A stretch of DNA of 64,000 nt, taken from NCBI RefSeq assembly GCF_016906535.1, contig NC_057381.1, positions 1,302,001 to 1,366,000 on the forward strand. The letters run 5' to 3'. The notes under the pieces are model-generated. The model made no database searches. It had not been told where the DNA came from and worked only from the letters and a program-made list of their open reading frames with translations. Made by a program: the position numbers and the translations under genes. Below are positions 1 to 61,515 of the stretch, one piece after another. The DNA comes from Rhizoctonia solani. Lineage: Eukaryota > Basidiomycota > Agaricomycetes > Cantharellales > Ceratobasidiaceae. How positions within the stretch are numbered: position 1 is the stretch's first letter; each line of letters begins with the position of its first letter.

Positions 1-2187
1 AACAGACGCTGAAATCGAAGCTGGGTTGAGAGAGATTATGTTGGATCAGGCTTTCGGAAGCGCTGGTACGATATGAAGGGACCTTGTTTATGCGCCGAAA
101 ACTTATTGTATTTTGTAGGAGACGAAGTGGTAATTGAAGAGTGCCTTACTGGGCCCGAAATATCTGTTCTCGCTTTCTCAGATGGGTACACCATTATTCC
201 TCTTCCTGCTGCTCAGGACCATAAGAGGATTGGAGAGGGCGACACGGGCCCAAACACAGGAGGAATGGGAGCATATGCCCCCGCCCCAGTGGCGACGCCT
301 GATGTCATGTCATTGATTATGAAGGAGACGTTGCAGCCTACGATTGATGGAATGCGTAGAGATGGTAATTTACGCCTCACTTAAATTGATCGTTTTGTGG
401 TACTCACCGTAAATCTACTAGGTTTCCCATTCGTTGGGATGCTTTTTACTGGGTTCATACTCACGTCCTCTGGTCCCAAGGTCCTCGAGTACAACGTCCG
501 TTTCGGCGATCCTGAGACTGAAGCTTTAATGTTACTCCTCTCGGATGACACTGACCTTGCCGAGGTGTTGTTGGTGAGTTCCAGCCTATTTTACATATTT
601 TTAGTGTTTACGTCACTTTCAGGCGTGCGTCGAACACCGATTGGATAGCGTAAAGATTTCTGCACGCCCTGGAGTTGCTGTCTCTGTGATCTTGGCTTCT
701 AAGGGATACCCTGGCAGCTATCCCAAGGGCAGGGCCATTACCACAGGATCGGTCCCAGAGAGTGAGTTTCGCGATGCTTTCTGCCAACCTTTCTTTTGTT
801 AAGACTATCCCTGCTCGTAGACACTGTTATATTCCATGCTGGGACATCCAAAAAAGACTCCCAAGTTGTGACTTCTGGTGGACGAGTAATCGCAGTCGCT
901 GCCTACGGCGAGACCATCCGCGACGCATTAGACAAAGCGTACAAAGGAGTGGATGCAGTTGAGTTTGAAGGCAAAACTTTCAGGCGAGATATAGCGCACA
1001 GGTAGGACGCATATATCCGACCCCTTTCTTCACTTATATCAAAACATAACAATAGGGCGCTGGCTCCACAAAACGGGTCCGGTCTCACATACGCCCAAGC
1101 TGGTGTTTCAGTCGATGCAGGAAACGCGCTTGTTGAAGCCATCAAGCCTTATACTCGTCAAACTCGCCGGGCGGGTGCCGATGGTTCGCTCGGTGGATTT
1201 GGAGGCGTATTTGACTTGAAAGCTGCTGGGTTTGGCGGGATGCGCGACCCTGTGTTAGTTAGTGGAACTGATGGCGTTGGTACCAAGTTGAGAATCGCCC
1301 TCGACTCTGGAGTACACGATACCGTTGGTATGGCTCTTGCCATCCTACATGGAATTAACGCTGATATATTATCTAGGAATTGATCTTGTCGCGATGTCGG
1401 TCAACGACCTTGTGGTCCAAGGAGCCGAACCTCTCTACTTCCTAGATTACTATGGGTGCAGCAAATTGGATGTTCCCGTAGCTGCACAAGTGATCAAAGG
1501 CATCGCCGACGGTTGCTTGGAGGCCGGATGTGCACTCATCGGAGGCGAGACTGCTGAAATGCCGGGCATGTATCATGAAGGCAAGCGCTTCCTCCTGTAT
1601 CTCGGTTTAGCGTCTTACATCATGAACAGGGGACTATGATCTCGCTGGATTTGCTGTCGGAGTAGTTGACCGACACTTACTTCTCCCCAAGCCAAATATT
1701 GCTCCTGGAGATGTCATTCTCGGCCTTGCTTCATCAGGCATTCACTCCAACGGTTTCTCTCTTGTTCGCAAAATCATCGCCCGCGCCGGCCTGAGCTATT
1801 CTTCTCCCTGCCCATGGGACTTTTCGAAAAACCTTGGATCTTCGCTCCTGACACCTACCAAAATATACATCAAACCATTGCTCCCTGCCGTTCGGGCTTC
1901 TGCTCTGAAAGGGTTGGCGCATATAACCGGCGGAGGCTTTGTCGAAAATATCCCACGAGTTTTGCCAAAGGGTACCGCTGCGCGTATCGACGTGTCGACA
2001 TATCCTTACCCCCCGGTTTTCCGGTGGCTCGCGAAGAAGGGGGCGTGGAGCCGCTCGAGATGGCGCGGACATTCAACTGCGGGATCGGTATGGTTATCAT
2101 AGTCGAAAAGAAGATGTTGAGAGGGCGAAAGGATTGATTGATGGAGAAGTGTACCAGATTGGCGAGGTTGTGAGTGGGGAAGGGTAG
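1..2187 (+). CDS. ADE5,7: Bifunctional GARS-AIRS purine biosynthesis enzyme, 3' part
   Basis: The protein joins phosphoribosylamine-glycine ligase (GARS, an ATP-grasp enzyme) to phosphoribosylformylglycinamidine cyclo-ligase (AIRS), two cytosolic steps of de novo IMP synthesis. The window opens inside GARS; visible landmarks are [22 protein letters not shown] and [11 protein letters not shown], then the AIRS landmarks [46 protein letters not shown] and NCGIGMVII. Introns inferred from GT-AG borders and reading phase: 66-118, 365-421, 574-622, 762-820, 1002-1055, 1328-1376, and 1581-1629, the last with a GC donor. The stop is TAG at 2185-2187. The last exon breaks frame twice, near 2040 (G run) and 2107 (A run). 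Each break is accounted for by one missing base, so it is either a sequence error or recent decay. Family assignment is certain; the 5' end lies outside the window. Confidence 0.93.
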
Positions 2188-2443
2188 AGCTGGTTGGTCT
2201 GGATGCATGGCTGTAAATGAGGAAATACTTAATATACATGTAAATCTAAGGTGAATAAAAAAATGAATTATTTTGATTCAGGTCCGACCCAACCATCGAT
2301 TTATCCTATGGATATTTCTCAGCATGTGCTATCGATGCGCAATTGTAAGCACTTCGTTTCGAGTTTTGGTATCACATATATTATATTATTTCATCAAAGC
2401 AGGCAACATTTACTTCTCAAAGCCAAATAAGATACAAACTTCC
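2188..2443. other. Convergent intergenic region ADE5,7 / AKR1
   Basis: This 256-bp AT-rich gap lies between the stop codons of two convergent genes and presumably holds both 3' UTRs. I see no gene in it. Confidence 0.6.
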
Positions 2444-5033
2444 TTACACACCCTCACTCATCCTCACAGGCTCGTACCCTCTCGATACGGCTCCCTGACC
2501 CATCATAGCTCTCAACCGCCCCATCAACTTGCCGCCTCCTGCACCCGAGTTCCAATCCTCGTGATCATCCCCTCGTCTCCTCTTAGCCTCTAGGAAGCCC
2601 TCGGGTGGGACATCCCACACATTCCTATAATCCACCCGAGTGTCTTTCCCGCGGTCCAAAAGTCTGTGCAGTTGCCACAACACCCAACGAAAACGGGTTT
2701 CGCGCCGATTTGGCGCGTTTGAGGCCCTCGCCGGCTCGGAATTTGGTATATCGCTCGAGTCCGGTCAAAGACATGACGGCAGATACGATACCTCCACAGC
2801 ATCCTCCTAGTTTGTGCTTATGACCATGACCCCGGCACGTGTGAATGACTGTGGTTGTGTGAATGACCATGTTGCTCCGAGAGACTGGTTCCGCCCTTTC
2901 CGCCCATGAATCCGTATCGTCCTAGGTTGGAGACTTCAGCGTGGTCATTGTCGCGTGATTTGCCATAGTTGGCCGGCTAAGAATGACTGTCCAGGAAAGT
3001 TGGAGAGTGGCCCATAGGGCGAGCGATAGGATGAATGTATGTGCGGCAGTCAGGGCGCAGAGTTCGGTTGGGAGGATGCAGGAGGGTGAAGGTGGACGAG
3101 TGGGAGTTGGAGTCTGTGTATCTAATGCGAAGTCTACGTCGGGTTAGCCAGGTGTTATTCATATAGGAAATAAGAAATCACTTACATTGCCAGGTTAAAT
3201 AATTGAACCAGAAGATGCCAGATACAAGTGTCGAAACAAAGATTATGAATTGTCGGTGGTTATTCACTCCCACTATTAATATCGCCTTAGTATACGCGCT
3301 TGGACAGAACAACTATATCTACTTACCACAATTCCACACCCAGGGGCAATGGCTACATCCTCAATTAGGCTCGTTCAAAAGCAAGGGCAGAGTAGAACTT
3401 ACTGGTCAAACCTTGCGACGCACTTGTCACATACTCGACAGTGTTTTGATCTGAGGGGTTTTCTAGCCATGCAGGTGATGCAGAACGTTTGGCCGTTGAG
3501 TTTTCCCTCTCCCGCAAGTTTTTCTATGATCTGTAATCCAAGACGTTAGCGGAAATCAACAGGAGTAAGAGGACAACTTGCAGCTTTCATTTCCCCCGCG
3601 CTCCCAGGTCGGGCACATGTCCCAGGGTCAAGAGTGATAGAGCGGAAGAAGTTGTATGCACATAAAGACGCGGATACGAAGTATAGGAGGTGAGCTAGTG
3701 AATGATCTGGAAGAGCTAAATAACCGTGTTCGCTTTAGTATAACTTGGTTGAGATGGGGCGAGCGTGACGTACCATGCACGAGGATGGTTGCCCACCCCC
3801 AAGTTACCCAGACCAAACTACCAAGGATGATTCCAGCAAAGTAAGGCGAGCCGGTTAGCGGCTCGGAATAAGACTGGTGGTTCAGAAGGACACGGGAGAT
3901 GATCTGGAGGCGTAATTAGGCAAAAGGTTGATTGGCAAAGGAACGATAATCTTACATGATGCATTCCAAAGAATTCAGCCATGGCGAGCGGGATGCCAGA
4001 GTACCAGGGTAGCATGTCAATAGTTTTGAATATGAGATAGAGGAAGGCGGTGGGCGTAAGTAAGACAGCGAGTTTCGTGTTTCGCTGGAAGAACGATCAG
4101 CATGATTTGATTTGGCGAATCGGTTAGGATACCCACTTCATTGAGTGGCTTGGCACTTTTCCTTCCATCTTCTTCGAACCCTCCCTCTTCAAGCGCTTTT
4201 CGCCATGCACCAATGCTCTTGAGTTCAACAGCCATATCTCGCGCAGTCTTCCCGTCTTGACTTCGAGCATTAAGGTCGGCTCCTGATTCGACCAAGCGCC
4301 TGATACACATTCTATTCCCTCGTACGACGGACCAATGCAGTGGAGTAAGGCCGACGGCATCCACTGCCGAAACCTTCGCGCCATGCTTCAGTAACAAGTC
4401 GACCGATAGAGCATCGCCTTGGTAAGCAGCCCACATGAGCGCAGTGTGTCCAGCACTATCCTGCGAGTCGATAGGAACTTTGTCCAAATGCTGAAGCATG
4501 TAGAGAACAGCCATGACTCCACTAGAGTGTGTGACGAGATGAAGAGTATTGTATCCCTGCGCGTCGCAGATCGAGGGGTCCGCGCCATGCTGAAGGAGCA
4601 ATTGGATAATATAGATGTATCCATTGCGTGCGGCCCATTGCAAGGGTGTGCTAACGAGTTCACCTCCGACAGCATCGACTTCTGCACCTGCCTGGATGAG
4701 ATATTCGCATGCTGCCAGTTGGGCATTGATCGCCGCCCAGTGTAACGGCGTTACGTTTTGTGAATCACGATCTGCGGCACTCGCCAATCCTCGACTGATC
4801 AGCGACTGCAAGAGAGGTACGTCTCCCCTCTGTGCAGCCAAAAAGATGTTTGTCTACAAGACAGTTAGTCACATGGTCATGGGTAATCCAAGATTGGGGC
4901 GCACCTCATCCCCTTCTTCAGGCACTTGGATCGTCGCCGTTGGGTTGTGAGCAACGTCAGCCGCGCTGGCGTTGTCTGCAGTTACCGCTGTCACTGCTGT
5001 CCCCTTGCTCGAGAAACCGGCAAGCTCGCTCAT
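2444..5033 (-). CDS. AKR1: Ankyrin-repeat DHHC protein S-palmitoyltransferase (Akr1 type)
   Basis: Akr1-type enzymes are Golgi/endosomal membrane proteins that S-acylate cysteines through a DHHC active site. The ATG at 5031-5033 opens a short acidic N-terminus; exon 2 (4853-4137) carries several ankyrin repeats ([37 protein letters not shown]). Exons 3 and 4 carry hydrophobic segments and the family phrase [19 protein letters not shown]. Exon 5 (3530-3403) has the Cys-rich stretch [19 protein letters not shown]. The [10 protein letters not shown] centre is formed across a 26-nt microexon (3352-3327), followed by VGVNNHRQF and further hydrophobic segments. Exon 8 (3133-2444) ends in GMSEGV and stop TAA. 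Four single-base frame breaks lie in exon 8, near 2935, 2830, 2675 and 2635; homology continues across each. The family call is strong, but whether the C-terminal half is really intact is uncertain. Confidence 0.88.
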
Positions 5034-34283: not shown

Positions 34284-37234
34284 TCAGGCACTTTTGTCTG
34301 GTTTGTCAGCTTCCTTGTCTGGGCTTGTGGGTTGCGTCTTGTTGTTTTGTGCTAATGGTATCTTGTCTTCTGGTCTGGGCGTGACTGGTAGCAATGAGTG
34401 GTCTATGGGTGTGGCTGGTTGCGTGGTGTTTGAGTCCAAGCGTTGTGCCAGTGCAAGTGCACAGGTATAGTTGTCTAACGGGGTACCAGGTGAGGGGATA
34501 AATGGACGCAGGAGGCGTGAGTGGGCAGCTGCTGAGAAGGTGTTACCCTCAAGGTCTACAAGAACATAAGAGTTGGTGGCTTTCAAAACTATGCAAACAG
34601 GGCCTGACCATTGTGGGGCAAGTTTGCAGAGAGAGCTATGGGTCTCATCTAGGCATGCATCATATTTCTGTACTAGGTCCCCAGCTTTGAAGTCTGCTGG
34701 CTTAACCTTTTTGTCAAACTGGCGCTTCCGCCTGGTTGCGTGCTGTAGGGCCTTGGCGTATCCATCCATGCGGAGTGCATACGTGAGTGCCATATTGACA
34801 TCTACCTCCTCTTGTGTAGGGTCTTGTATTTGTATACCAATCTTGGCTTTTTGCTTGGGGGATAGGATGCCAGTTAGGAGTTTGCGTGGAGAATATCCAA
34901 GGGATGGTAGTACCCTATTGTTTAGCTGTGCTACTGCTTCATCAAGGTGTTTGGGCCAAGCTGCTGGTGTGGACATGGGGTTGTGGTCAGCGTCTGGGTC
35001 TATGCCAAGATCTGGGGCACAGAGGCGTTTGATCCTGCCTGCAAGGAGCTTTGCGTATCCTTCCGCTGGTCCATTTGTCCAGGGCGCATATGCCGGCGTC
35101 TTAATAAGTTGTGTGTTGCAGCTGCTGGCCCATTGGCGGACCTCCTTGCAGTCAAAGTGACTTCCTCCATTGGTCATAACCAAGCTGGGTTTCATGAGCA
35201 TACTCAATATTCTAGCTAACAAGTCCACAGTGAATTTCCTGGTGCCAGGCTTGTGAGTTGGAAATGCAAATAAGAACCAACTGTACATGTCTGCCACAAG
35301 TAAGATATTCTTGAATCCTCCTTGGCCTTCTGGGAACAAGACATAGTCTGCCACTAGGAGGTCAAAGGGTCAAGCCCTGGTAATTGGTTTGAGCAGGGCT
35401 GATAGCAGCCAGGGTCCAAAGTTCTTGCATCTAGCGCATGTGGTTACTGCCAATGTTGCATCTTGCCTGAGGTGGGGCCAGTGGTAACATTGCTGTAGTG
35501 CAATGACTGTCATGTCTCTGCCAAAATGACCTCCTGCTGCATGGACTGATGCTGCCAACTCTGGTCCTTCCAACTCTGGTATGCATTTGACTCTTGTTCC
35601 TGCTTGTCCATTCTTTCTGCCAACTAGCCATAGCTTCCCATCATTGGCAAAGTATCCTGATGCCTGGTGTGCTCTTTGTTTGCTAGCTGCCACTTTGTCT
35701 GGGTTCTCTGGGGTTGACAATCCAGCCTTGAACAACAGGTGCGTCAGAATTTCTTCAAAGTAGGGGTCCCCTGCAAAGCAATCAAGCAAGTATGCTGAAC
35801 TGTTGTCTGGAGCCAAATGGTATAAATCATTGACAAGCTGCTTCTGTGCCTCCCATCCTGGGTTGACTGTTTCAAGCCTCCCTGGTCCTGTGTTGTTGTC
35901 TCTACAGGGGCCCCAAAAACCCAGGAGCACTCTGGAGTGCTCCAGTTTTGGGAGCCTCCTTGTTAGGATCCAACGGATCTGGATTGCTTGGCAACCACTT
36001 GGGAGCGCTCCACAAGCACTTCCAAGCATCATACCAAACGCTCTGGAATGCTTGCCAACAATAGCAAGTCCCAGAGTGCTCCCAAGATTTTTGGGGCCCT
36101 GTAGAGGTCTCTGCAGCTCTTGTGAACCCTTGACAACGCATTGCAGACTGTGTTGGTGCTCCCTGGTCTGTGTCTGACCGCTTGTATATCTCTTGCAAGG
36201 ACAAATTCCCTCCACTGTTTGTGGGTCAAGTTCAACTTCTTGTTCCCTATGAGGTCTGCCAACACCTTACAGTCTGTCTTGAGTTCAATGATCTGTCCAA
36301 ATATCATACTCTCAAATTTGTTGAAAGCAAACTTGAGAGCAGCAAACTTGAGTAGGAATGGGATGTAGTGTTCTTTGGCCTGGGATGTCTGTTTGGAGGC
36401 AAAGGCAACTGGGTACCTCACTTTCTTGGTTGCACCATTTACTCCCAATTCTTCCCATTCCTGAGCTAGAACTGCACCAAAGCCATATTTAGATCCATCA
36501 GTTGTGACAATAAATGGCCAACCATTGTATACTGGGGCTCTCAGGACCAAATCTGAGGTGAGTATTGTCTTTAGCCTTGCAAACAACTTCTTGGCCTCCT
36601 TGCTCAGTGTGACTTGGGTTTCTTGCAGTGCTCTCCTGTATTCTGCTCTTGGTGAGTCTGCTGATCTCATGCCCCTAGTATAGCCCTGTAGGGGTTGGGC
36701 AATTTGTGCATAGTCTTGGATTTTGGATTGGTAGGCATTGGTGAGCCCAATGAAACTCATGACCTCTAAGACCGTCTGTGGCTCCAGCCATTCTAGAATA
36801 ACCCAAACTTTGGCCAAGTCTGGGCAAATTCCAGCTTATGACACTCTTGCGCCTGCAAATACTGCCTCTGTCATGAATAGGACCATTTTCAATGCCAACA
36901 GGGAGATCTTCTTTTTGCAACACCAGTTGAATATAGTACATATGTTCTGCATGCCCTTGTCAAATGTGTTTGCTGCTGTTGCTAGGTTGTCCATCCAAGC
37001 TTCAAGTATTTTCCCTAGTAGATTGTGGAATGCCAATGCAATCATCTCCTGGAAGACTGTTGGGGCGCTGGTGAGCCCAAAAGGCATCTGTTTGTATATG
37101 TAGTGTCCCCTGCCATCCACATAGAATCCAGTGTATGGGATGCTCTCCACTGCAATTGGGATTGCATGGAACCCTGCCTGTAAGTTCATTACACTGACAA
37201 AGTGGTGCCCTGCCACAGCCCTTTGTTTGGCTGC
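34284..37234 (-). pseudogene. G Pol: RT C-terminal part, RNase H, integrase
   Basis: RT keeps YKQMPFGLTSAPTVFQEM, but motif A reads VMNLQAGF (Asp to Asn) and the active box reads WMDN instead of xMDD. RNase H follows (VTTDGSKYGFGAVLAQE). The zinc finger has HAAGGHFGRD and CARC. Integrase has MADYVLFP, TNGGSHF (Asp to Asn) and GPAEGYAKLL. Frame breaks lie near 36825, 36100 and 35360. Three catalytic Asp to Asn changes and several frameshifts mean it is dead. The integrase belongs to a gypsy lineage distinct from A, D and F (no chromodomain seen). Confidence 0.8.
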
Positions 37235-37658
37235 CAGGTGTCCCAGATGTCCTTAGGGGGCGTCAAGGCAGCGGGTGCTTGCAGCTGTAAGTACTAAGTA
37301 AGATCCGCATAAGGCAGTGGGAGTTGCTACCTGCAACAATGAACTAACTAACTACAGTGGTCACATGCTGTAAGGCAGCAACTAGCTACGTATGTACAGT
37401 AGGGTCAACGCTTAAGGCATGTATCTAAGTGGTTTACTGGCCTAAGGCCTTGTACAGTAAGATGGATGCAACAAGAGGTAATTGACCTGGGTGTTACCAT
37501 GGTTGGTTGGCCTCCTTATATATTACAGGGTGGACTAATTACAAATACAGCGTGTGTGGGAAAGGAAGCTAACTATATGAAATAAGAACCCTGCTCTGCC
37601 AGCAGCCTTACTCATGCATACGTGTCACTGATGATGTCATCAGGTGGAGGTGGCTACA

Positions 37659-38128
37659 TGTCATGACCCACTCCATTCTGTCCATGAGTCCTGACCTTGT
37701 CAAGCCTCCAACACACTCATGTTGCACACCAACATGACCGCAAGCACGCATATACTCGCACATATGCACTCAGAACCTCCAGGTTCCCACATATAAGAGA
37801 CTTATGGTCGACATGGCTGGACTTAGTGATATTCTCTAAGTCCAGGTCACATGACCTCCCCCCCTCCAGTCCTTTATCAAATACTATACTAAACTACTAC
37901 GGATTTGAGGTGGGGGGGGGGGATGACATAATCTCTTCTATAATAATATATTATTCAGACCTTGCCCGCGGGCTCCCTTAACATTGGCCCGCGGCTAGGG
38001 GGGCGGGGGGAGTGCAACGTCCCCCAGCAACTTATATTATTAATATATCACTGTGCATCATATATACTATATATATCTTTGACAGTGGATATATATGGTA
38101 ATAACCCCTCCAGATATGGGTTATGACA
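37659..38128 (+). repeat. Rep-element left terminal repeat (LTR)
   Basis: 470 bp. Contains an ACATATAAG promoter-like box near 37788, the 12-bp palindrome GGTCACATGACC (37845-37856), a G-run of about ten, an AT-rich palindrome (TAATATATTA, near 37944) and a GC hairpin (37966-37994). Confidence 0.9.
37966..37994. other. GC hairpin in left terminal repeat, candidate origin
   Basis: Arms CCGCGGGC (37966-37973) and GCCCGCGG (37987-37994) are perfectly complementary around the 13-nt loop TCCCTTAACATTG. Size and GC-rich stem fit a CRESS origin stem-loop. The loop is not the canonical TAATATTAC-type nonamer, so the role is inference. Confidence 0.5.
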
Positions 38129-39193
38129 TTGAAATCAAGCTGCTTACCTATACCCAGTATATATATACATATATATGTGTATATGTATTGCCTATAGGGG
38201 ATGTAGGGATGACTAATGCCCCTACATCACTGATGCACAACATATTGTCCCAACAACACGACGTCAGATTACCATTTATGGTAACTCACCTTCCTAATTA
38301 GGAAAGAGACATAACTTGAAGAAGACTTTCAAGACAAATAGAGACTAAGCAACCTAGACTTACCAAAAATGGCAATCCCCTTTCCAAATTAGGAAAGAAG
38401 ATGAAATGGATGGATGACTAAGCTTAGTCAGCTGAACTCTGATGAGTCAGCAACCAGATCACATGATCAACTCATTGATAACAAATCAAGTATGACTAAG
38501 CAGGATGACAAATGCTTAGTCAGCAACCAGGTCACATGACCAACTCATGAATGACAAATCAACTATGACCAAGCATAATGACAAATGCTTAGTCATCAAG
38601 TACTACCTGCACTGCCACAATCACATGATGATGGCTGTGCTTGATCTCCGGGTAAAACCGGGCCGGATTGGGGAATAGGATTACCATATATGGAAATTGG
38701 ATGAGTCATACTTATATTGTGGCTGTGCATGCCAAGAGTATGAGTCATACTTAAGCGGTGTTCCACGTGATCATGTGCTAAAAATAGAACCAACTCCGCC
38801 AAGACCTCACCTCACTGGTGTATTTCTTGGCATCTGATTGGCTAATCAAGCACTGCCACATGGTTCTTTGACTCATACTGCTTCTTGAGGCTGTGCTCCG
38901 GCTCCAAGAGGCTGTGCTCCTATTTGAAATATGTATATAGACCCAAGTGATGCCCAGGTATATATAGGGGTGGAACAAGCTGCTTAGAAAGCCAGCTTGA
39001 TTTCCCTTGTCTTACAACCTATAGGGACAAGCAGGTGTTGCTACACCTCAAAAAAAAGCAACTGCGTGATTTATTTGAAATTCAACTATCAACAACTGTC
39101 AACAAAGGATCTCCACTGATCCTTCTATCTGATTTGTGATAAGAAGTACTGTCAGAGTCTTCTCATCACTAGGACCCTAGGTGTCCACTGCTT
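38129..39193 (+). other. Leader between left repeat and repeat array; iteron-like repeats
   Basis: Non-coding. A unit beginning GCTTAGTCA recurs at 38422, 38514 and 38587 (spacing 92 and 73 bp). It carries palindromes GATCACATGATC (38457-38468) and GGTCACATGACC (38530-38541), with TCACATGA again near 38631. No ordinary tRNA-type primer-binding site was recognised after 38128. Confidence 0.5.
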
Positions 39194-39415
39194 TACTTGC
39201 AAATAGCTAAAGACTTCCTCTGTGGGTTGCGCTATTTTGCCTCTTGCTAACTAAGACTTCTTGTCTTCTACTTGCAAATAGCTAAAGACTTCCTTTGTGG
39301 GTTGCGCTATTTTGCTGCTTACTAACTGAGACTTCTTGTCTGCTACTTGCAGATAGCTAAAGACTTCCTTTGTGGGTTGCGCTATTTTGCTTCTTACTGA
39401 CTAAGATAGGTATAT
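39194..39415. repeat. Three tandem 75-bp repeats
   Basis: Copies start at 39194, 39269 and 39344 with TACTTGCAAATAGCTAAAG, followed by GACTTCCTTTGTGGGTTGCG and a CTATTTTGC block. They differ at a few positions. They lie 60 bp upstream of ORF1 and could be Rep-binding iterons or transcription-factor sites. Confidence 0.85.
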
Positions 39416-39474
39416 CTTAGAACTTGCGAGTAATAGAGACTATTATAGTGCTCTATTTGGCCTTTTGCAACAAT

Positions 39475-40710
39475 ATGGGATTTCATAAGATGCAACCTAG
39501 GCGTGTATTTGGGACTTTGCCCCAATTGGATAACCCTGAACATGATCATGTCATGGAGCTGACATCTCCTATGCAAGGCATGGAACAGGGACATCAGGAA
39601 GGAGTAGGAATCACCCCTTCTAAACAGGCTGACCAACCGGATATGGAATCATTTCAACTTGCCACAGCTAGGATCCTAGACCCTAGGCATGAGAATCCAG
39701 GGAATAACACACCCTTGGAGGACCCTGCCACCAGGGAAAAGGAAACCCCTTTGGTAGATAAGGCAACCAGGAATAAGACAGTGAAGGATTTTATTGAAGA
39801 CTTCTTTGCCAAATTCCCTGAGGAAACTCAACCACCAAAAACTGAGGCAAACAGGAAACGGATTACTAATGACCACCTTACAAGTACCCAAAAGGTCTAT
39901 GGATTCTTAATGGAACTAGTAATGGGAGTCAAAAGGTTGGAGAAACATATTGACAACCATCTAAAGATGGAACAGGAAATGCTGGATCGAGGCATTTCTC
40001 AGGAGGTGATTGATGAATTGGATAAAATACTTCCCTTGTCTTCCCTCTGGGAGGCTGAGAACCACAGTGAATCCAATTCCGATAAATCAGGGTTTACTGA
40101 AATCCAATGTGAGGTGTGTGGGAGAACAAACCATGCTACTGAAGAACATAGGAAATCACGTGACCCTAGGGCAAAGGGCAATAAAGGGTCTGACAAGCGG
40201 AAAGATAAGGGTCCTGGCAACCCAGGGTATAAAGGAAGGCATCCCATGCCTGGGAAGTCATCTCAAACCACCACTGGCACCACTACTTTCTTATCCATCC
40301 CCATTACTAAGACATCATGCCTGCCATCAGAACAGAGACCAGGATCTCCAAGGCCACTGGAGATGCCACCTCTTACCACCTTGACAGATCCAGTGAGCAC
40401 AGGACCGAGTTCCCTTGGTCCCAGGACAACCTGGATCAATGGGCACCCCCAGATCCATCCATGGGCTGGGACATGGGGAATGATCAACCCCCTATCACCA
40501 ACATCTATGACTGGCATAAGGTCATCACAAGATGTGACTCCTTCCAACAATCCAAGGCTTATGCCAAACTACTTGATCCCTCAGCAACCCTTGATTACAT
40601 ACCAATGGGTCAACGATGGAAATGCTACTGGATTGGAAGAACCCTACGCTGTCCAATCAGGGGATACCTCCGCTGGGTTGGCAGTGAGCCACCAAAACAA
40701 CCCAAACTAA
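39475..40710 (+). CDS. Rep-element ORF1, gag-like protein of unknown function
   Basis: 411 residues from the ATG at 39475 (MGFHKMQPRRVF). A helical, charge-rich middle segment (QKVYGFLMELVMGVKRLEKH, then NHLKMEQEMLDRG) precedes a zinc-knuckle-like CEVCGRTNHATEEH (CX2CX4HX4H) and a basic tract (RAKGNKGSDKRKDKG). The C-terminus is Pro/Ser/Thr-rich. Coiled segment, knuckle and basic tail are the order seen in retrotransposon Gag, so a nucleic-acid-binding, Gag-like role is plausible. I recognise no family. The last 394 bases overlap ORF2 in another frame. Confidence 0.65.
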   Translation: MGFHKMQPRRVFGTLPQLDNPEHDHVMELTSPMQGMEQGHQEGVGITPSKQADQPDMESFQLATARILDPRHENPGNNTPLEDPATREKETPLVDKATRNKTVKDFIEDFFAKFPEETQPPKTEANRKRITNDHLTSTQKVYGFLMELVMGVKRLEKHIDNHLKMEQEMLDRGISQEVIDELDKILPLSSLWEAENHSESNSDKSGFTEIQCEVCGRTNHATEEHRKSRDPRAKGNKGSDKRKDKGPGNPGYKGRHPMPGKSSQTTTGTTTFLSIPITKTSCLPSEQRPGSPRPLEMPPLTTLTDPVSTGPSSLGPRTTWINGHPQIHPWAGTWGMINPLSPTSMTGIRSSQDVTPSNNPRLMPNYLIPQQPLITYQWVNDGNATGLEEPYAVQSGDTSAGLAVSHQNNPN

Positions 40711-41174
40711 TGCAAAGTACCAAGTTCTTTGTGTGTAGAGGTAATGTGGGTGCCTCTGTGGAGGATGTAGTGAGGGCCCCAGTGCTAAAGCACACAAGGA
40801 AGTTGGCAGAGTGGCATCTAGACATTGAGGAAATTGATCCTGAATGGTGGATACCAATCTCAACAGTAAGGGAATGGCTGGCTGCGGAAATTGAAAACTG
40901 GAAAAACAAACTGCCATCAGGCTTAGGTGGCTATGTGGACAACCTCACTCCTGAGGATGTCTATTACATGATCCTAGAACGCGAAATGAGCATAGAGGAT
41001 CTACATGACTGGCTCAAACAATGGGCCATGCAAGCAGCTCAGAATGATCTGAGCAGAAGTATATCTAACTTAGCAATCCATGAACTAAGTGATGAAGGAG
41101 GACATGAGTCTGACCTTGAAAGTAACAAGGCCATGAACGAATGGAATCCCTTGGATTATGCTGATGGAATGTGA
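40317..41174 (+). CDS. Rep-element ORF2, unknown protein
   Basis: 285 residues, overlapping the end of ORF1 in another frame. It could be made by frameshifting from ORF1, by splicing, or from its own ATG at 40317. Trp-rich with an acidic C-terminus: QRWKCYWIGRTLRCPIRGY, FFVCRGNVGASVEDVVRAP, DPEWWIPISTVREWLAAEI, SIEDLHDWLKQW, LDYADGM. No catalytic motif of protease, RT or integrase is visible. Both overlapping frames stay open for about 394 bp, which suggests that both are under selection. Function unknown. Confidence 0.6.
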   Translation: MPAIRTETRISKATGDATSYHLDRSSEHRTEFPWSQDNLDQWAPPDPSMGWDMGNDQPPITNIYDWHKVITRCDSFQQSKAYAKLLDPSATLDYIPMGQRWKCYWIGRTLRCPIRGYLRWVGSEPPKQPKLMQSTKFFVCRGNVGASVEDVVRAPVLKHTRKLAEWHLDIEEIDPEWWIPISTVREWLAAEIENWKNKLPSGLGGYVDNLTPEDVYYMILEREMSIEDLHDWLKQWAMQAAQNDLSRSISNLAIHELSDEGGHESDLESNKAMNEWNPLDYADGM

Positions 41175-41385
41175 TGAAATATGTAACATTCCATTAGTTA
41201 CCTTACATTCTTCTCTTCTTCCTTTTCTTCCAATGTTTGATCCTTCTTAGTAACCATGTGTCTTATCCGATCTTCCAAGAATCATTTTATCTCTAAATGC
41301 CAAATGGAGGAAGAGAAAGGATGCCTTTATTAAGACAGGAACCAAAACAGACAAGACAAGGAAAGACAAGACAAAGAGGAACTTT
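41175..41385. other. Convergent gap between ORF2 and rep
   Basis: 211 bp between the two opposed stop codons, pyrimidine-rich at 41205-41235. It is the expected place for both polyadenylation regions, as in the small intergenic region of ambisense CRESS genomes. Confidence 0.4.
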
Positions 41386-43064
41386 CTAATACAGCTTATC
41401 ACCAATATACACAAAGGTACAATTGGTGTCAATCCAATTCTTGCCATCAACTGTGGCATAACTACAATCAGCAAATACAGAAGGCTTAGAATTGGAACAT
41501 ATAACAGTAGAACGCCCCCATTGGCAATGGCGCTCTGATCTATAACTAGTGCGGAAGTTGAAGTCTTCCTGCACCCACATCTTCAAAGGAACCTTGGACC
41601 AATCCATATCATCCAGCACTGCATACTGAACCATAGGATGGTCACTAAACTCATCAGAGTTGAGGTTCTGCCTGAACCTAATATGGTGCCCCCAAGAACA
41701 AGCCAGGGCTGACTTCCCTGTTTCTGAGGGCCCCCACAAAACAAGGATCTTACCACGATCAGATTCAGGGTCACGTTCCAATATATTGGAAGCAACCCAC
41801 TCCTGAACACCAGGTGGCAAGTTGACTGTAGCCCTGGTAACAACTTGTCAACATTCTCTTCTATGATGAAAAAGAAGAGGACTTACTTCTTAAGGGCCTT
41901 GGGTTCACATACACCCTGAGGAAGGGCACCCTTGTCCCTGTAGAAGTAACCAGTGAAAGCCTTGAGGTTGTTATACCCCATGGCCATATCACGAGGTTGG
42001 CGCTCCTTTAAGCGACCAAAAAATCCCTCAGCATCCTCTGCCTCCATGGCATAGGCAAAATCTTCATTACGCTGTAATAAGAGAACCATCAGCTGAGAAC
42101 CTCTTTCCATAACCAGGGACTTACATTGGTCTTAGCCTTCAACCCTGCAGGGCACTGGCCTAATAAGAACTCCTCTGTAAGGTTCCCATATCTTGCCTCC
42201 CAGGCATCTGCCTCCTTCTTGAGATACTCATAGGCTGATAAAGGGGCAAACCTTCCCTTATCATCCCTAAGTACAAGAAGACGCTCATGAGGGCGCACTC
42301 CCTTATACTTCCATAGGTTCAGGGCCTCTGATGAGATGAGGGTCCTGGCCCAAACAATAACATGGCAATGCCAATCAGGCTGCCATTCACCTTCCCTCAG
42401 GTCATGGGACTCAGTGACCCCCATGGCATACTCCAAAAGGGAATTTGCCCCACTCCTCAGAGTAAGAAGATGATCTACAAGACTTGAATAATCTTCAGTA
42501 AAAGTAAAAACATCCTGGGTATAACTACTTACTCTTTTATAACCTCATGGCGAGAGGTTTCCCTTGTCTCCTCACTCTTGACATAACAAGCATAAGTGAG
42601 AAGATAACACTTCCCCTTACGACGGAAGCGCCTTCCTTCTTGGGGAAGAACCCCAATGTCCTCCTGCCCTTCAGGGTCTGCAGGAACAATAGATTCCCTT
42701 GACTCCAATGGAGCCATGGATGGGACAATGGAGCTTCCTCCATTTTCTAAGTCTTCCCTGTCGCTGGGCACTGCTAACCAACGCCTGGACAAGGGGGGAA
42801 GCACGCAGGATATCTGTGACTTTACAGTTATCTTTTAGTAAAAAGATTTTGCTAGCAAACAAGGCCACTTACTCCTTCTTCTTGGGAGTCCAGATCCAAC
42901 CTTCTTTTGAGAGTCCTGGGAGTGAGCTGTGACAGAGGCAGCTCTTGACTCTGCCACACAGTAGATGCAATCTGGGAAACATAGGGGGTGGCATCCAACA
43001 GCCCTGAAGGCTGTGAATCCAAGACTGTGGAGGGAGTGGCGCTGGCAGTTGGGCATTGAGACAT
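41386..43064 (-). CDS. rep: Rolling-circle replication initiator (CRESS-type Rep: HUH endonuclease + SF3 helicase), five exons
   Basis: Rep proteins nick a hairpin origin through a Tyr and unwind DNA with an SF3 helicase. Exons 43064-42873, 42813-42533, 42482-42125, 42071-41887 and 41833-41386 have GT-AG borders and sum to 1464 nt, giving 487 residues with consistent phases. The N-terminal 64-residue extension is Ser/Thr/Pro-rich. Motif I is CYLLTYACY (exon 2), motif II is DWHCHVIVWA (HUH, exon 3), and motif III is AYEYLKKE (YxxK nicking Tyr). In exon 5 Walker A is GPSETGKSA, Walker B is AVLDDMDW and motif C is TVICSNSKPS. All six motifs are present and no frame break exists. Closest to geminivirus-like Reps by motif shape; exact affinity needs a tree. 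Spliceosomal introns show adaptation to a fungal nucleus. Confidence 0.9.
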
Positions 43065-43444
43065 GTTGATGACTTATCCCACCTCCCACTGCCCTCTTCT
43101 TTATACCATGGGGGCCAAGAAACTGAATCAGAGGGAAATGACTTACTATACCAATCCTTTCTGAACAATAAAATGGCACCATACAGTAACCAAGCAACCA
43201 TGAAATATGTTGCTAACCAGGAACTTCCAGAAGACTTGAGAAGTTGCTTTACAAAGACTGTAGTGTGGGAACTTTCCCACAGGAAGAAAACAACATTCCA
43301 ATAAGGATCACATGACCAAGAACAAGTCAGGTGACCTCAGAACAACTCATTGCACAATTGTACTTAGGGAAACTTGACACCTAATAAGATATCTATCCAG
43401 ATATCTTTTCTAATGGCACAAGTTCATGTCCCCTAAACTATGTG
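43065..43444. other. rep upstream region
   Basis: 380 bp of non-coding DNA upstream of the rep ATG. It holds a further TCACATGA palindrome (GATCACATGACC, about 43306-43317) and a related GTCAGGTGACCT. Together with the terminal repeat and the 38129-39474 leader it would form one large divergent intergenic region in a circular form. Confidence 0.5.
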
Positions 43445-43459
43445 CAAAAGGGGGGGCAA
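43445..43459 (+). other. Polypurine tract of the Rep element
   Basis: CAAAAGGGGGGGCAA lies directly before the right terminal repeat, where a plus-strand primer of an LTR element is expected. Confidence 0.75.
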
Positions 43460-43928
43460 TGTCATGACCCACTCCATTCTGTCCATGAGTCCTGACCTTG
43501 TCAAGCCTCCAACACACTCATGTTGCACACCAACATGACCGCAAGCACGCATATACTCGCACATATGCACTCAGAACCTCCAGGTTCCCACATATAAGAG
43601 ACTTATGGTCGACATGGCTGGACTTAGTGATATTCTCTAAGTCCAGGTCACATGACCTCCCCCCCTCCAGTCCTTTATCAAATACTATACGAAACTACTA
43701 CGGATTTGAGGTGGGGGGGGGGATGACATAATCTCTTCTATAATAATATATTATTCAGACCTCGCCCGCGGGCTCCCTTAACATTGGCCCGCGGCTAGGG
43801 GGGCGGGGGGAGTGCAACGTCCCCCAGCAACTTATATTATTAATATATCACTGTGCATCATATATACTATATATATCTTTGACAGTGGATATATATGGTA
43901 ATAACCCCTCCAGATATGGGTTATGACA
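43460..43928 (+). repeat. Rep-element right terminal repeat (LTR)
   Basis: 469 bp, nearly identical to 37659-38128. Differences: one T/G, one T/C and one G fewer in the G-run. It carries the same GGTCACATGACC (43645-43656) and the same hairpin (43766-43794). Confidence 0.9.
43766..43794. other. GC hairpin in right terminal repeat, candidate origin
   Basis: Same 8-bp arms and 13-nt loop as at 37966-37994. Two origins flanking a unit-length element is the arrangement from which Rep can release circles. Confidence 0.5.
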
Positions 43929-44089
43929 CTACATGTGCTTTTTGAGTGCGGATGGGGATGTGGCTTGGCGCTTAGCATATGATATAAGCACCAAGGTCAC
44001 ATGACTGAAAATGTAGTTTGTTCTTCTTTGTTTAAATTCGAGAAAATTGGAATAAATTCCGTGGTATTGACTGTGTCTACAACACCAGG

Positions 44090-45329
44090 TCTCTCATTGG
44101 GAACATGTATACCCAGGTCACTTGGTTTACTGATGCAAAGTTCTGGACCAGTTGCCACTTAGCTGGGGGTGGCTGTTCTCTCTGTTGTCCTGGTTTGTGG
44201 AACCCTGCCTTGGGGAATTGGATTGGTATGCCATAACATTGACACTCCAAGTTGGCCAGGCGTTGGAGGTACTCTGTTGTGGGTAGGTTGATGCCTCCTG
44301 GTTTTGGTACTAGGCTGATAGGTGAGACTGCTTTAACCTGATCTTGCATGACCTGTTTGATGACTCCTGCTGCCTCTAGCTTGTCCAACATCCTGTAAAG
44401 TGCTTGCTTCTGCAGCTCAGTCATCTGCCTCTGACCTGCTCTCATAGGGAACACTGCAGCTGCCAGGATATCTAAGCAGAGTTTCAAGAAATTAACTGCA
44501 CAGACTTTGGAAAGGTTAAGTGCAAAGACATCTGCAAACTCCTGGATCACACTCTGTGCTGCAGTTCTCTGGTCTGGTGACAGGTCCAGTCCAATGTGGA
44601 CTTTTTGTAGGATTTCTGCTACTTGTTTGGGGCTAAACAGGTTTGTTTTGTGTTTGGACTTCAGGTTTACTGCTGCAGTTGTAGCCAACTGTGTACCTAA
44701 CTCTGGACCTCTCTTCCTTGCTCTTGTTCTTGTGGCATGTGTGAGTACATCCTCAAGGGGTTGAGTTACAGCTGGTGTAGGCACCTCCTCTTTGGTGAGC
44801 ATGATTGATCTCATTTGCCTGTCCTCTGCCTCTGCTTGTGCCTCTTGCCAATGCCTCTCTGCCCAATTGTTTGGGTTATCAAGTGTTCTCAACTCTGACT
44901 CTTTGCTCTGACTATAGCACTTGTATTCAACCAGGGCCTGTTTGGCCATCCAGCCTCTACTTGTTGAGGTTCTGTTTCCTTTGTTCAGGAGTCTTTTGCT
45001 GCAGCACAGTGGGTGTGGGTGTGGACTTGGGCTTGGGGGTGTTTGCGTTGACTCTGGCCCTGCTGGCAAAGCATGGACCTGCAGTACCACTGGTCTGCTG
45101 TTTGGTCTTGGCCCTTTGGGTTTGACTGGCAGTTGTCTGCCTCTTGGGTTTTTGTTCTCAATGTACCTAGGACCTGTATCTGAGGTCAATGTGATTGCAT
45201 CCACCTTGAATATCTGTTTGGCTTCTGCCTGCCTAAGCCAGTTTTTTCCCAATAAGATCTCAAACAATCCTCCCAAGTCTAAGACTTCAAATTCAATTGG
45301 CCAGGAGCACTTGCAATGGATGATGGTGC
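44090..45329 (-). pseudogene. G Pol: protease C-terminal part and RT N-terminal part
   Basis: The frame begins in the protease (GTIIHCKCSWPIEFEVL, then LGGLFEILLGKNWLRQA), passes a Pro-rich linker and reaches RT (PISLVPKPGG, WQLVQNFASVNQVTW). It is cut at 44090 by the solo LTR-A and resumes at 37234. Upstream it is cut at 45329 by a solo LTR-B; the first protease part is at 45897-46051. Confidence 0.78.
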
Positions 45330-45334
45330 CCATG

Positions 45335-45896: not shown

Positions 45897-46051
45897 CCTC
45901 TACCCATCAAGGGGACCCAATTTCCATTTGCCATTTGGCACACAATGTTGGAGGGAGTTAGCTTCCTGAATAGGTATTTGATTTGGACCAAGACTACCAT
46001 GTCTACAATGCACAACATGGCTCCTCCATCAATAGTTCCCCACATCTCTGT
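45897..46051 (-). pseudogene. G protease N-terminal remnant
   Basis: MWGTIDGGAMLCIVDM, then LTPSNIVCQMANGNWVPLMGR reads as the first part of the retropepsin domain that continues across the solo LTR-B at 45329. It ends at the LTR-A start at 46052, so gag of this element is lost or lies elsewhere. Confidence 0.65.
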
Positions 46052-46601
46052 TGTTGTAGACACAATTGATACCAGGGAATTTATTCCCATTTTCTCAATT
46101 TTAAACAAAGATAAACAGACAACATTTCCAATCATGTGACCTTGGCACTTATATCATATGCTAAGTGCCAAGCCACATCCCCATCTGCGCTTACCTCATC
46201 ATACGTAGCCACCTCCACTCAATGACATCATCATGACATGTCAGTGACACGTATGCATGAGTAAGGCTGCTAGCAGAGCAGGGTTCTTATTTTATATACA
46301 CAGCTTCCTTTCACACATAGATTGTATTTGTAATTAAGCTTACTTTGTAATATATAAAGAGGCCAACCAACCATGGTAACACCCAGGTCAATTACCTCTT
46401 GTTGTATCCCCAAGAAACTGTACAAGGCCTTAGAGCCAGTAACTACTCAGACACACCCTGTATTTGTTGCCTTAAGCAGCTCTCTCATTGTAGATACATA
46501 GCTTGCCAACGCCCTTAAGGCCTTGGTTGTTGTACTTAGATAGTTAGTTGTTGTAGGTAGCCTCCTCACTGCCTTAAGCAGTTCCTACTCAGTTCCATAC
46601 A
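46052..46601 (+). repeat. LTR-A, 3' truncated
   Basis: Starts TGTTGTAGACACAATTG and follows the A-family LTR, with many CpG to TpG/CpA changes, to within about 50 bp of its end. The LTR-C copy then begins at 46602. Confidence 0.82.
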
Positions 46602-59900: not shown

Positions 59901-60473
59901 TGTCCTAGACGTCCGTAAGGGGCGTCGAGGCAGCGGGCGCTTGTGGCCGTGTGTACTGAGTGAGAAACCGCTTAAGGCGGTGGGGGTTCTACCTATGACA
60001 ATGAACTACCTAACTACGATGACCACGCGCTGTAAGGCGGCGGCAAACTACGTACGTACAGTGGACCTGACGCTTAAGGCGTGTATCTAAGTGCTTTCTG
60101 GACTGTAAGGTCCTTGTACAGATTGGGGATGCAACAAGAGGTAATTGACCTGGGTGTTACCATGGTCGGTTGGCCTCCTTATATATTACAAGGGTGAACT
60201 AATTACAAATACAATATATGCAATACTATAACCAATAAGAACCCCAATCCGCAGTTGGTCTTACTCATGCATACGTGTCACTGACGTGTCATAGTGATGT
60301 CATCAGGTGGAGGTGGCTACGTATGCTGAGGTAAGCGCGGATGGGGACGTGGCTTGGCGCTTAGCGTATGATATAAGCGCCAAAGTCACGTGATTGAAAA
60401 TGTTGTCTGTTTGCCTTTGTTTAAATTCGAGAAAATGGGAATAAATTCCCTGGTATCGACTGTGTCTACAACA
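59901..60473 (-). repeat. A3 3' LTR (LTR-A family)
   Basis: 573 bp, complete; in plus reading TGTCCTAGACGTCC...GTGTCTACAACA. It lies next to the A3 pol and its polypurine tract, with TCACGTGA and the GGCGCTTA/TAAGCGCC pair intact (about 60356-60393). Confidence 0.9.
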
Positions 60474-61515
60474 CTGCCCCCCCTCTAAGGGCCTTGGCAG
60501 CGCCAAGGGCCTTCTTTTTCATTTCTTTTTCAAATTTTTCTAGGATTTTTTTGGCGTTTTTGAGGTTTTCCCTTGGTTCCCAGGTGTTCTCCTCTGACCC
60601 ATAGCCCTTCCATTTTACCCTAAAGAACCATTTCCCGTTCCTTTCTTCCATGTCCGTGATTCCTTCCACCTCATATTCTTCTTCCCCATCCACAGTGACT
60701 GGAGGGGGGCAATTTTCAAAGGCGCGTTTGTTATCTCTTTTGACCTTTGACAATAGTCCCACGTAGAAGACATTGTGGATGCGCATAGTTGAAGGAAGTT
60801 TGAGTTGGTAAGCATGGTTGGAGATTTTTTTGGAGACTTTGAACGGTCCCAGACGTTGTTCCGTCAGTTTGGGGCTCAAGGTTTTTAGGTTAACGTTTCT
60901 GGCGTCAAGCCATACTTCTTCCCCTACTTCAAATTTGGTTGGGCTTCCTTCCTTTCCAGCGGTCATTTTTGTCTTGGATTGCCGGAGTGCAGCTTCCACT
61001 TCTCTCCACTGAGATTCCATTGTCTGAGCTAGATCATTGGCTTCCGGTACATCTGTTGGTATGTTGGACGGGGTCAGGGAAGGCTCCCATCCATATAAGG
61101 CTTTGAACGGTGTTTTCCCAGTACTGCTATGTACGGCGTTGTTGTATGCAAATTCCGCCATTGGGAGCCACCTTGTCCAGTCCCGTTGATTGATACCGGA
61201 GTAAGCCCTTAGGAAGTGTTCAATAGAGGGGTTCACTCATTCTGTCTGTCCGTCGCTTTGTGGGTGGTACGCTGAGGAGAAGTGTGGATCAATGCCTAAT
61301 TGTTTGTACAGTGCTTGTATGAACTTGTTGTTGAAGACTCTACCCCTATCCAATATTGTTTTTTCCGGCATTCCATGACGTTTCCACACGTGTTCCAGGA
61401 ACAGTTCCGCTAGCTCAGGTGCTTTGAGCTTCTTGGAACATTTGACAAAGATTCCGTATTTTGTGAAACTGTCTATTATGACCAGTATGGAGTTGTTGTT
61501 CCCGTCCCTTGGTAG
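60474..61515 (-). pseudogene. A3 Pol: integrase and chromodomain fragment
   Basis: A-family pol from LPRDGNNNSILVIIDSF onward: LDRGRVFNNKF, then GQTE and an in-frame TGA at 61236-61238 where A1 and A2 have an Arg codon (QTERVN), so CGA to TGA is likely. The second frame continues MNPSIEHFLRAYSG to the chromodomain (EYEVEGITD, KWKGYGSEENTWEP). It is cut at 61515 by an LTR-F copy; RT and gag are absent. Confidence 0.88.

Follow-up and report, generated by a model that had tools for sequence, protein, structure and literature searches.

How does a gene for a viral-type replication protein come to lie between two long terminal repeats (LTRs), and what could it do there? The question is raised by a 64,000-nt stretch of Rhizoctonia solani DNA (NC_057381.1, positions 1,302,001-1,366,000 of the forward strand, assembly GCF_016906535.1), the whole of which is called the window below. 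An LTR-bounded element in this window carries a rep gene predicted to encode, in five exons, a geminivirus/genomovirus-like CRESS Rep of 487 aa, opposed by two open reading frames (ORFs). We consider it fairly probable that the element represents a non-autonomous Ty3/gypsy family with ORF1, ORF2 and an antisense Rep, which would be mobilised by a chromovirus via RNA and whose Rep would amplify circular forms of the element.

A multicopy LTR family with a rep gene

The two LTRs of the window element differ by 2 substitutions and 1 gap column across 469 aligned bases. They have the termini TGTCATGACC...GGTTATGACA, and CTACA is found on either flank. The polypurine tract (PPT) AAAAGGGGGGGCAA directly adjoins the 3' LTR, and a leader of 1.2-1.3 kb lies between the 5' LTR and the ORFs. 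ORF1 and ORF2 are on the plus strand and rep is on the minus strand. The features are as follows:

37654..37658, no strand: target-site duplication (TSD) CTACA, left copy, from flank comparison
37659..38128, plus: 5' LTR, 470 bp, TG...CA, from LTR alignment and genome search
37817..37845, plus: LTR stem-loop CTGGACTTAG-TGATATTCT-CTAAGTCCAG, 10-bp stem and 9-nt loop; candidate origin only
38129..38150, plus: primer-binding-site (PBS) region (TTGAAATCAAGCTGC...), shared with the autonomous gypsy element
38129..39244, plus: leader, with 97% identity to that of the autonomous chromovirus L071 across 1116 bp
39194..39418, plus: three tandem 75-bp repeats at the leader end, differing in copy number among elements
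39475..40710, plus: ORF1, 411 aa, with a CX2CX4HX4H knuckle-like motif (seen by eye); under purifying selection
40317..41174, plus: ORF2, 285 aa, in another frame and overlapping ORF1
41386..43064, minus: rep gene, predicted five exons, 487 aa, HUH nuclease and helicase motifs
43064-42873, 42813-42533, 42482-42125, 42071-41887 and 41833-41386, minus: predicted rep exons
42814..42872, minus: predicted rep intron 1, 59 bp, GTAAGT...TCACAG
42483..42532, minus: predicted rep intron 2, 50 bp
42072..42124, minus: predicted rep intron 3, 53 bp
41834..41886, minus: predicted rep intron 4, 53 bp
43446..43459, plus: PPT, common to the autonomous gypsy element
43460..43928, plus: 3' LTR, 469 bp
43929..43933, no strand: TSD CTACA, right copy

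Seven ORF pieces of the window were scanned against Pfam. None matched a reverse transcriptase (RT) or integrase family at E<=1, and none supplied the gag, RT and integrase of its own that mark an autonomous LTR element; ORF1 and ORF2 matched no Pfam family above cut-off. The initial annotation of this DNA had described LTRs of 470 and 469 bp with a CTACA duplication and a PPT, a Rep with HUH motifs I-III and Walker A, B and C, two ORFs opposed to it, and no recognisable RT or integrase. The LTR alignment, the located motifs, the strands of the genes and the Pfam scan bear out this description.

We searched the R. solani genome (40.7 Mb, 16 contigs, designated C1-C16; L-numbers denote loci and P-numbers Rep relatives) for further copies. 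It contains at least 42 matches to the LTR (40 of 278 candidates scored); LTR-PBS junctions number 43, against 0 with a reversed control pattern. Both counts greatly exceed what chance would give. The last rep exon has 23 matches at 91-100% identity, ORF1 38 and ORF2 28, several of which may come from one copy. Flanks were compared for ten LTR pairs. All ten have TG...CA ends and enclose matches to ORF1, ORF2 and rep (the latter by its helicase exon) in the same order. A perfect 5-bp TSD was found in seven of them, different each time (CTACA, GTATC, AATAT, TGAGC, AGTTC, GCAGA and TATAT), and a solo LTR at C13:874235 is flanked by a GAATG duplication. The LTRs within a pair diverge by a Kimura two-parameter (K2P) distance of 0.004-0.020 (nine of the ten pairs measured), and they are mutual nearest neighbours in 8 of 9 pairs, the exception being C6:2302900. 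Later insertions enlarge the element or split an LTR in four of the ten (C6:2302900, C1:119318, C10:368694 and C15:777159, in the last of which the 5' LTR is split). The rep elements at C10:368694 and C1:119318 (L088, L089, L081, L082) measure 12.6 and 13.7 kb through such insertions, and the one at C1:119318 has another gypsy element's pol inside.

The site of insertion was traced with the joined flanks of the window element (37464-37658 plus 43934-44085). They matched 44 places (40 of 1036 candidates scored), and in 41 of these the sequence continues across the joint with no element in between; the remainder comprise the two flanks of the element itself and a single short piece. A dispersed repeat, about 350 bp long, is the target. 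Two aligned copies of it, at 60127-60474 and 46048-46409 of the window, read GTGGCTACGTATG, with a single copy of the target. At these paralogous empty sites the whole element is absent.

The initial annotation had proposed a hybrid transposon that integrates like an LTR element. This proposal is supported by the several copies with one gene order and different 5-bp TSDs; second copies are many, and the element is missing in its entirety from the empty site. Not foreseen were the derivation from a chromovirus, the five predicted exons and the purifying selection on Rep that are described below.

The same data bear on the possibility that the cargo represents an independent DNA transposon of geminivirus-like type, nested by chance in an LTR element. 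A model for such a transposon exists in a truffle. As described for Tuber melanosporum, it is a multicopy fungal element with 37-bp terminal inverted repeats (TIRs), no obvious TSD, transposase ORFs and geminivirus-like, interrupted Rep genes (PMC3198968, Liu et al. 2011), and resembles the present element in being multicopy and in its type of Rep. The genes of the cargo have an arrangement of their own, and in 4 of 18 stretches (C8, C16, C2:2602612 and C3:250212) pieces of it were seen without LTR or leader within the stretch. However, the C8, C16 and C2 pieces are fragments, and the C3:250212 stretch ended near the cargo end. In 13 of the other 14 stretches the cargo is accompanied by LTR and/or leader, and the 14th is one half of an insertion-split element with its 3' LTR. 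No TIRs or transposase of the Tuber type were found in a scan for inverted repeats at the cargo ends (13 short pairs, none of which joins its two ends) and in the seven ORF pieces compared with Pfam. Complete copies are bounded by LTRs and 5-bp TSDs, and gag-pol is absent rather than interrupted. Chance nesting is thus very improbable.

The related chromovirus and a probable RNA route

Two of the LTR-PBS junctions that lack rep were opened, L071 and L070. Downstream of the first lies a 7.6-kb element (L071, C9:2102590-2111900) with two open frames, a gag of 675 aa and a pol of 1134 aa. In Pfam they match models for gag (PF03732), protease, RT, RNase H, integrase and chromodomain; the matches to the integrase core and to some of the protease models fall under the Pfam cut-off. 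The LTRs of L071 show 0 substitutions and are bordered by the TSD CTTCT on both sides. Its pol is at least 96% identical in 6 genome copies, 2 of them without stops (41 of 1546 candidates scored).

The rep element and L071 are 97% identical across LTR positions 79-470 and again across the first 1116 leader bases; their PBS regions are identical, the PPT is common to both, and both have a 5-bp TSD. Because LTR, leader and PPT are shared, the rep element looks like L071 with gag-pol replaced by a cargo of about 4 kb, that is, like a non-autonomous derivative of a Ty3/gypsy chromovirus. L071 differs from it in having gag and pol (RT, RNase H, integrase, chromodomain), in lacking rep and in the start of U3. 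The LTR difference lies mainly in the first 55-78 bases, and a comparison of whole LTRs places the rep elements in a subfamily at about 0.10 K2P from L071. We rejected the idea that ORF1 is a diverged gag: its similarity to the L071 gag is short and weak (best E 0.010 in a one-to-one comparison). The other opened junction, L070 (C4:528390-537900, 1-3097), belongs to an element of about 3.1 kb that has LTR positions 184-470, the PBS and parts of the leader in common with the rep element; the stem-loop is missing from it, and no gag-pol or rep was seen between its LTRs.

Since genes for a reverse transcriptase are absent between its LTRs, the rep element likely moves by the enzymes of a helper. 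There is strong support for integration by an integrase of retroviral type that is provided in trans, and the shared sequences make the chromovirus its likely source. Chromovirus proteins would reverse-transcribe the RNA of the element and then integrate the product, both in trans. A self-priming pairing between PBS and LTR was also considered and dropped, as it yielded AT-rich matches alone and no convincing complementarity.

The predicted rep introns bear on a passage through RNA. Because rep runs antisense to the LTR-driven transcript, the element RNA would retain them. We aligned the 17 of 22 rep-similar loci that were complete enough (left out were C12:1388838-1391243, C14:992551, C16:3531906, C1:127633 and C8:105228). 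All four introns are present in 17/17 copies with GT-AG borders in register, except for one acceptor at C3:250460; the four of the window are all of the form GTAAGT...AG, and rep is predicted to be spliced. At two loci, L057 (C8:103724-107155) and L058 (C16:3530627-3534055), which are 98.5% identical over 3430 bp, rep exon 5, intron 4 and exon 4 are fused antisense to the pol of another gypsy element. The rep fragment follows pol directly, near pol residue 510 and inside the RNase H domain, and its orientation is that of the rep element's plus strand, which is the one that template switching would produce. This chimera probably arose by template switching between co-packaged RNAs. The kept antisense introns and the pol-rep chimera are indirect signs of a mobilisation in trans via RNA, which we consider likely.

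Rep and the selection acting on it

The Rep of the window contains CYLLTY, WHCHV and YxxK, which we take to be HUH motifs I-III, followed by the helicase motifs GPSETGKS, VLDDMDW and TVICSN. Motif I, the HxH and Walker B are identical in 17/17 copies. Motif III is identical in 13 copies, deleted in two and changed at its Lys in both halves of an inverted duplication; motif C is changed in 2/17 copies and the Walker A stretch in 3/17. A stretch of the central domain reads KERQPRD in the window and KE[R/H/C]QPC[D/N] in all 16 other copies, a difference of one residue. In seven aligned relatives (the other six being 53-87% identical to P0001), the motif II histidines and the motif III Tyr and Lys are invariant. 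The inverted duplication just mentioned is a near-identical pair of rep elements at C12:239103-249843 (L027-L030, L051, L052), in which both Rep frames are open.

Two homologue searches agreed in the 31 proteins that they returned, each of which bears the name Rhizoctonia or Ceratobasidium; P0001, P0002, P0003, P0009 and P0014 are from Rhizoctonia solani and have RhiXN_ locus tags. That homologues occur in Ceratobasidium and in further groups of R. solani suggests that Rep has persisted in the lineage. Databases already list some of these homologues as 'Geminivirus Rep catalytic domain' or 'Replication-associated protein', so the rep gene itself is known there. A search of PDB sequences with the Rep alignment and with P0036 gave no match, and of 22 pattern matches in viral contigs none was confirmed as a Rep relative.

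The likeness to the Reps of Genomoviridae and Geminiviridae consists of the HUH and helicase motifs, of the geminivirus central domain in one relative and of fold-library matches. Gemini_AL1_M was found in P0011 at 25.3 bits (cut-off 24); the other relatives scanned either lack it or stay below this cut-off. In the better of two low-confidence structural models (pLDDT 38), the nuclease region has the order of strands and helices that we assume for an HUH domain. A viral fold library gave 15 matches at E<=0.001 (best E 4.2e-5), of which 8 are unnamed; the 7 named ones are all Reps, five of them genomoviral by name. The R. solani Rep differs from these viral proteins in having about 130 additional N-terminal residues ahead of motif I and in its four predicted introns.

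The rep copies fall into two allele types, which differ by a dS of 0.31-0.33 and a dN of 0.04-0.05. dN/dS is 0.12-0.17 in four cross-type pairs (Fisher P 1e-27 for the window against C6:1842267), and the introns of the two types differ by 0.37-0.40 (three pairs). Similar ratios were obtained for the mosaic copy C3:2750841 against type B (0.18), for the window compared with two older copies, C10:369520 (0.18) and C15:861040 (0.21), and for the type-B copies C6:1842267 and C12:239344 (0.24, P 3e-7). The 33 of 136 pairs with a dS of 0.05-0.20, which are not independent and include broken copies, have a dN/dS of 0.05-0.34; in many of them (e.g. all within type B) the introns diverge less than the synonymous sites. 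Judged by these substitution ratios, Rep is under purifying selection.

For the other two genes, only the parts outside the overlap are informative; the overlap is uninformative in either frame, and a misaligned ORF1 row (C3_252) was left out. Compared with four older copies, ORF1 has a dS of 0.12-0.17 and a dN of 0.035-0.044. For ORF2, the comparisons with C15:858, C10:371, C3:1592 and C12:241 tend in this direction and that with C14:993 in the opposite one (dS 0.011, dN 0.019, few changes). ORF1 is thus constrained too, ORF2 less clearly.

When two type-B elements were compared, the divergence between the allele types proved to be centred on about 41.16-42.9 kb, with 8.8-25.6% per 250-bp bin and 2.8% in the last-exon bin; elsewhere in the element it is 0.4-3.8% per bin. 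In C3:2750841 the 5' half of rep is of type A and the 3' half of type B. Since the divergence is concentrated in the rep patch and this copy is a mosaic, Rep alleles have been exchanged within a common LTR backbone.

Possible activities of Rep and comparison with known elements

Our best guess, a tentative one, is that Rep acts as a rolling-circle initiator on circular DNA of the element: it would nick and amplify LTR circles. We favour this activity because the copies retain the residues of the nuclease as well as those of the helicase; the initial annotation, too, had supposed that the element may replicate as a circle. Purifying selection does not tell which activity of Rep is preserved, and Rep may have been selected for another job that involves no DNA replication, such as regulating the LTR or its own promoter, acting on the host cell cycle or on silencing, or defence against DNA viruses. 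It would agree with such a role that one otherwise open copy has lost the motif III Lys and that no rep-specific origin was found, the LTR stem-loop being the sole one kept as a candidate. The HxH and the motif III Tyr and Lys, invariant in the seven relatives, and the motif I, HxH and Walker B kept in all 17 copies compared speak against a Rep that is only a regulator, because pure DNA binding needs no such conservation. We regard a role outside replication as quite possible, at clearly less than an even chance.

A more specific reading goes beyond rolling-circle initiation and supposes two cycles: integration via the helper chromovirus and, in between, a Rep-driven rolling-circle replicon with the LTR stem-loop (loop TGATATTCT) as origin. 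We think this rather unlikely. The loop resembles TAATATTAC, which we take to be the CRESS origin nonanucleotide, and the stem-loop is nearly invariant, with 3 minor-state cells in 25 LTRs; equal or higher conservation occurs in 54 of 442 windows of its size. A GC stem-loop at 37966 was dropped as an origin, since it varies between copies. The palindrome TCACATGA occurs six times in the element (37847, 38459, 38532, 38621, 43308 and 43648) and ten times in the window, against 1.1 expected from base composition. We do not claim it as an iteron because copies lie outside the element too.

Several observations weigh against a chromovirus-mobilised element with an active Rep. The PBS lacks a TGG start. 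Three of the ten LTR pairs have no perfect TSD: four of five bases match at C15:1581154 (TTCTC/TTCTT) and C15:777159 (CACCC/TACCC), and the flanks of C3:2750841 differ (CAGCT/CTTCC), with no TSD. The Rep exons of the window have weak Pfam matches (Gemini_AL1_M, E 0.013), none of which passes the cut-off. The Rep models are of low confidence (pLDDT 31 and 38, from alignments of 11 and 20 relatives) and too poor to stand by themselves, the 15 viral fold-library matches at E<=0.001 have TM-scores of 0.12-0.15 of the query, large rmsd and 12-20% identity, and fold comparison of the model with the PDB gave no significant match. The rep frame is broken in 9/17 copies; two of the 8/17 open ones are the halves of the inverted duplication, with Thr for the motif III Lys. 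The three youngest rep pairs computed have a dN/dS of 0.9-1.4. Finally, gypsy LTRs without rep, those of autonomous elements among them, conserve the LTR stem-loop just as well, so that it is not assignable to Rep. As it occurs in these LTRs and at 118 places in total (<=3 stem mismatches), it may simply serve transcription.

The broken frames and the ratios near 1 in young pairs would suit a Rep that is a dead passenger caught in an LTR element. Against this stand the older rep lineages, with a dN/dS far under 1, and the copies whose frame is open. A high dN/dS in the youngest pairs is expected with decay of copies after insertion. We consider a dead passenger very improbable.

Gene capture by LTR elements is known, and so are non-autonomous LTR elements with gene cargo (LARD, TR-GAG), which have LTRs, PBS and PPT, lack pol and are thought to be mobilised in trans. 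The rep element differs from these in that its cargo is a CRESS-type Rep that is under selection and has antisense introns. A Helitron was rejected: the element has 5-bp TSDs and a predicted Rep of 487 aa, whereas Helitrons have no TSD and a very long RepHel. The Terminons of bdelloid rotifers are, to our knowledge, without LTRs; the window element has LTRs, and no RT match in its seven ORF pieces scanned. According to their description, Terminons are retroelements able to carry a rolling-circle Rep, which for its authors may point to circular intermediates; they differ from the rep element in having an Athena/Penelope-like RT, telomere attachment and a size of up to 40 kb (PMC6431247). Bdelloid LTR elements capture other ORFs, and no Rep protein or replication initiator turned up when the text of the study on them was searched (PMC5408684). 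The words geminivirus and replication-associated are absent from two R. solani genome papers (PMC9890813, PMC7926851). The Rep-bearing Terminons and the TIR-ended transposon of the truffle come nearest to the rep element among known systems. Our literature search, which covered titles and abstract openings and few subscription papers or preprints, found no description of a Rep inside an LTR element among the papers listed. The rep gene is thus known to databases, and its LTR context is in no paper that we found.

We found no precedent for an LTR element that is without gag-pol yet preserves a functional-looking CRESS Rep. LTR circles are usually considered dead ends, and a selected HUH nuclease/helicase in a retroelement would make their replication testable. 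It would also offer a concrete path for exchange between single-stranded DNA (ssDNA) viruses and retrotransposons. If the two-cycle reading is true, the element would be a retroelement that has become a DNA replicon, and it might show one way in which genes of ssDNA viruses are joined to retroelements.

Outside the element, the minus strand of the window contains, at 36836-37189 and 44077-45333, ORFs that by eye resemble pieces of the RT and of the upstream frame of another retroelement and that flank the insertion.

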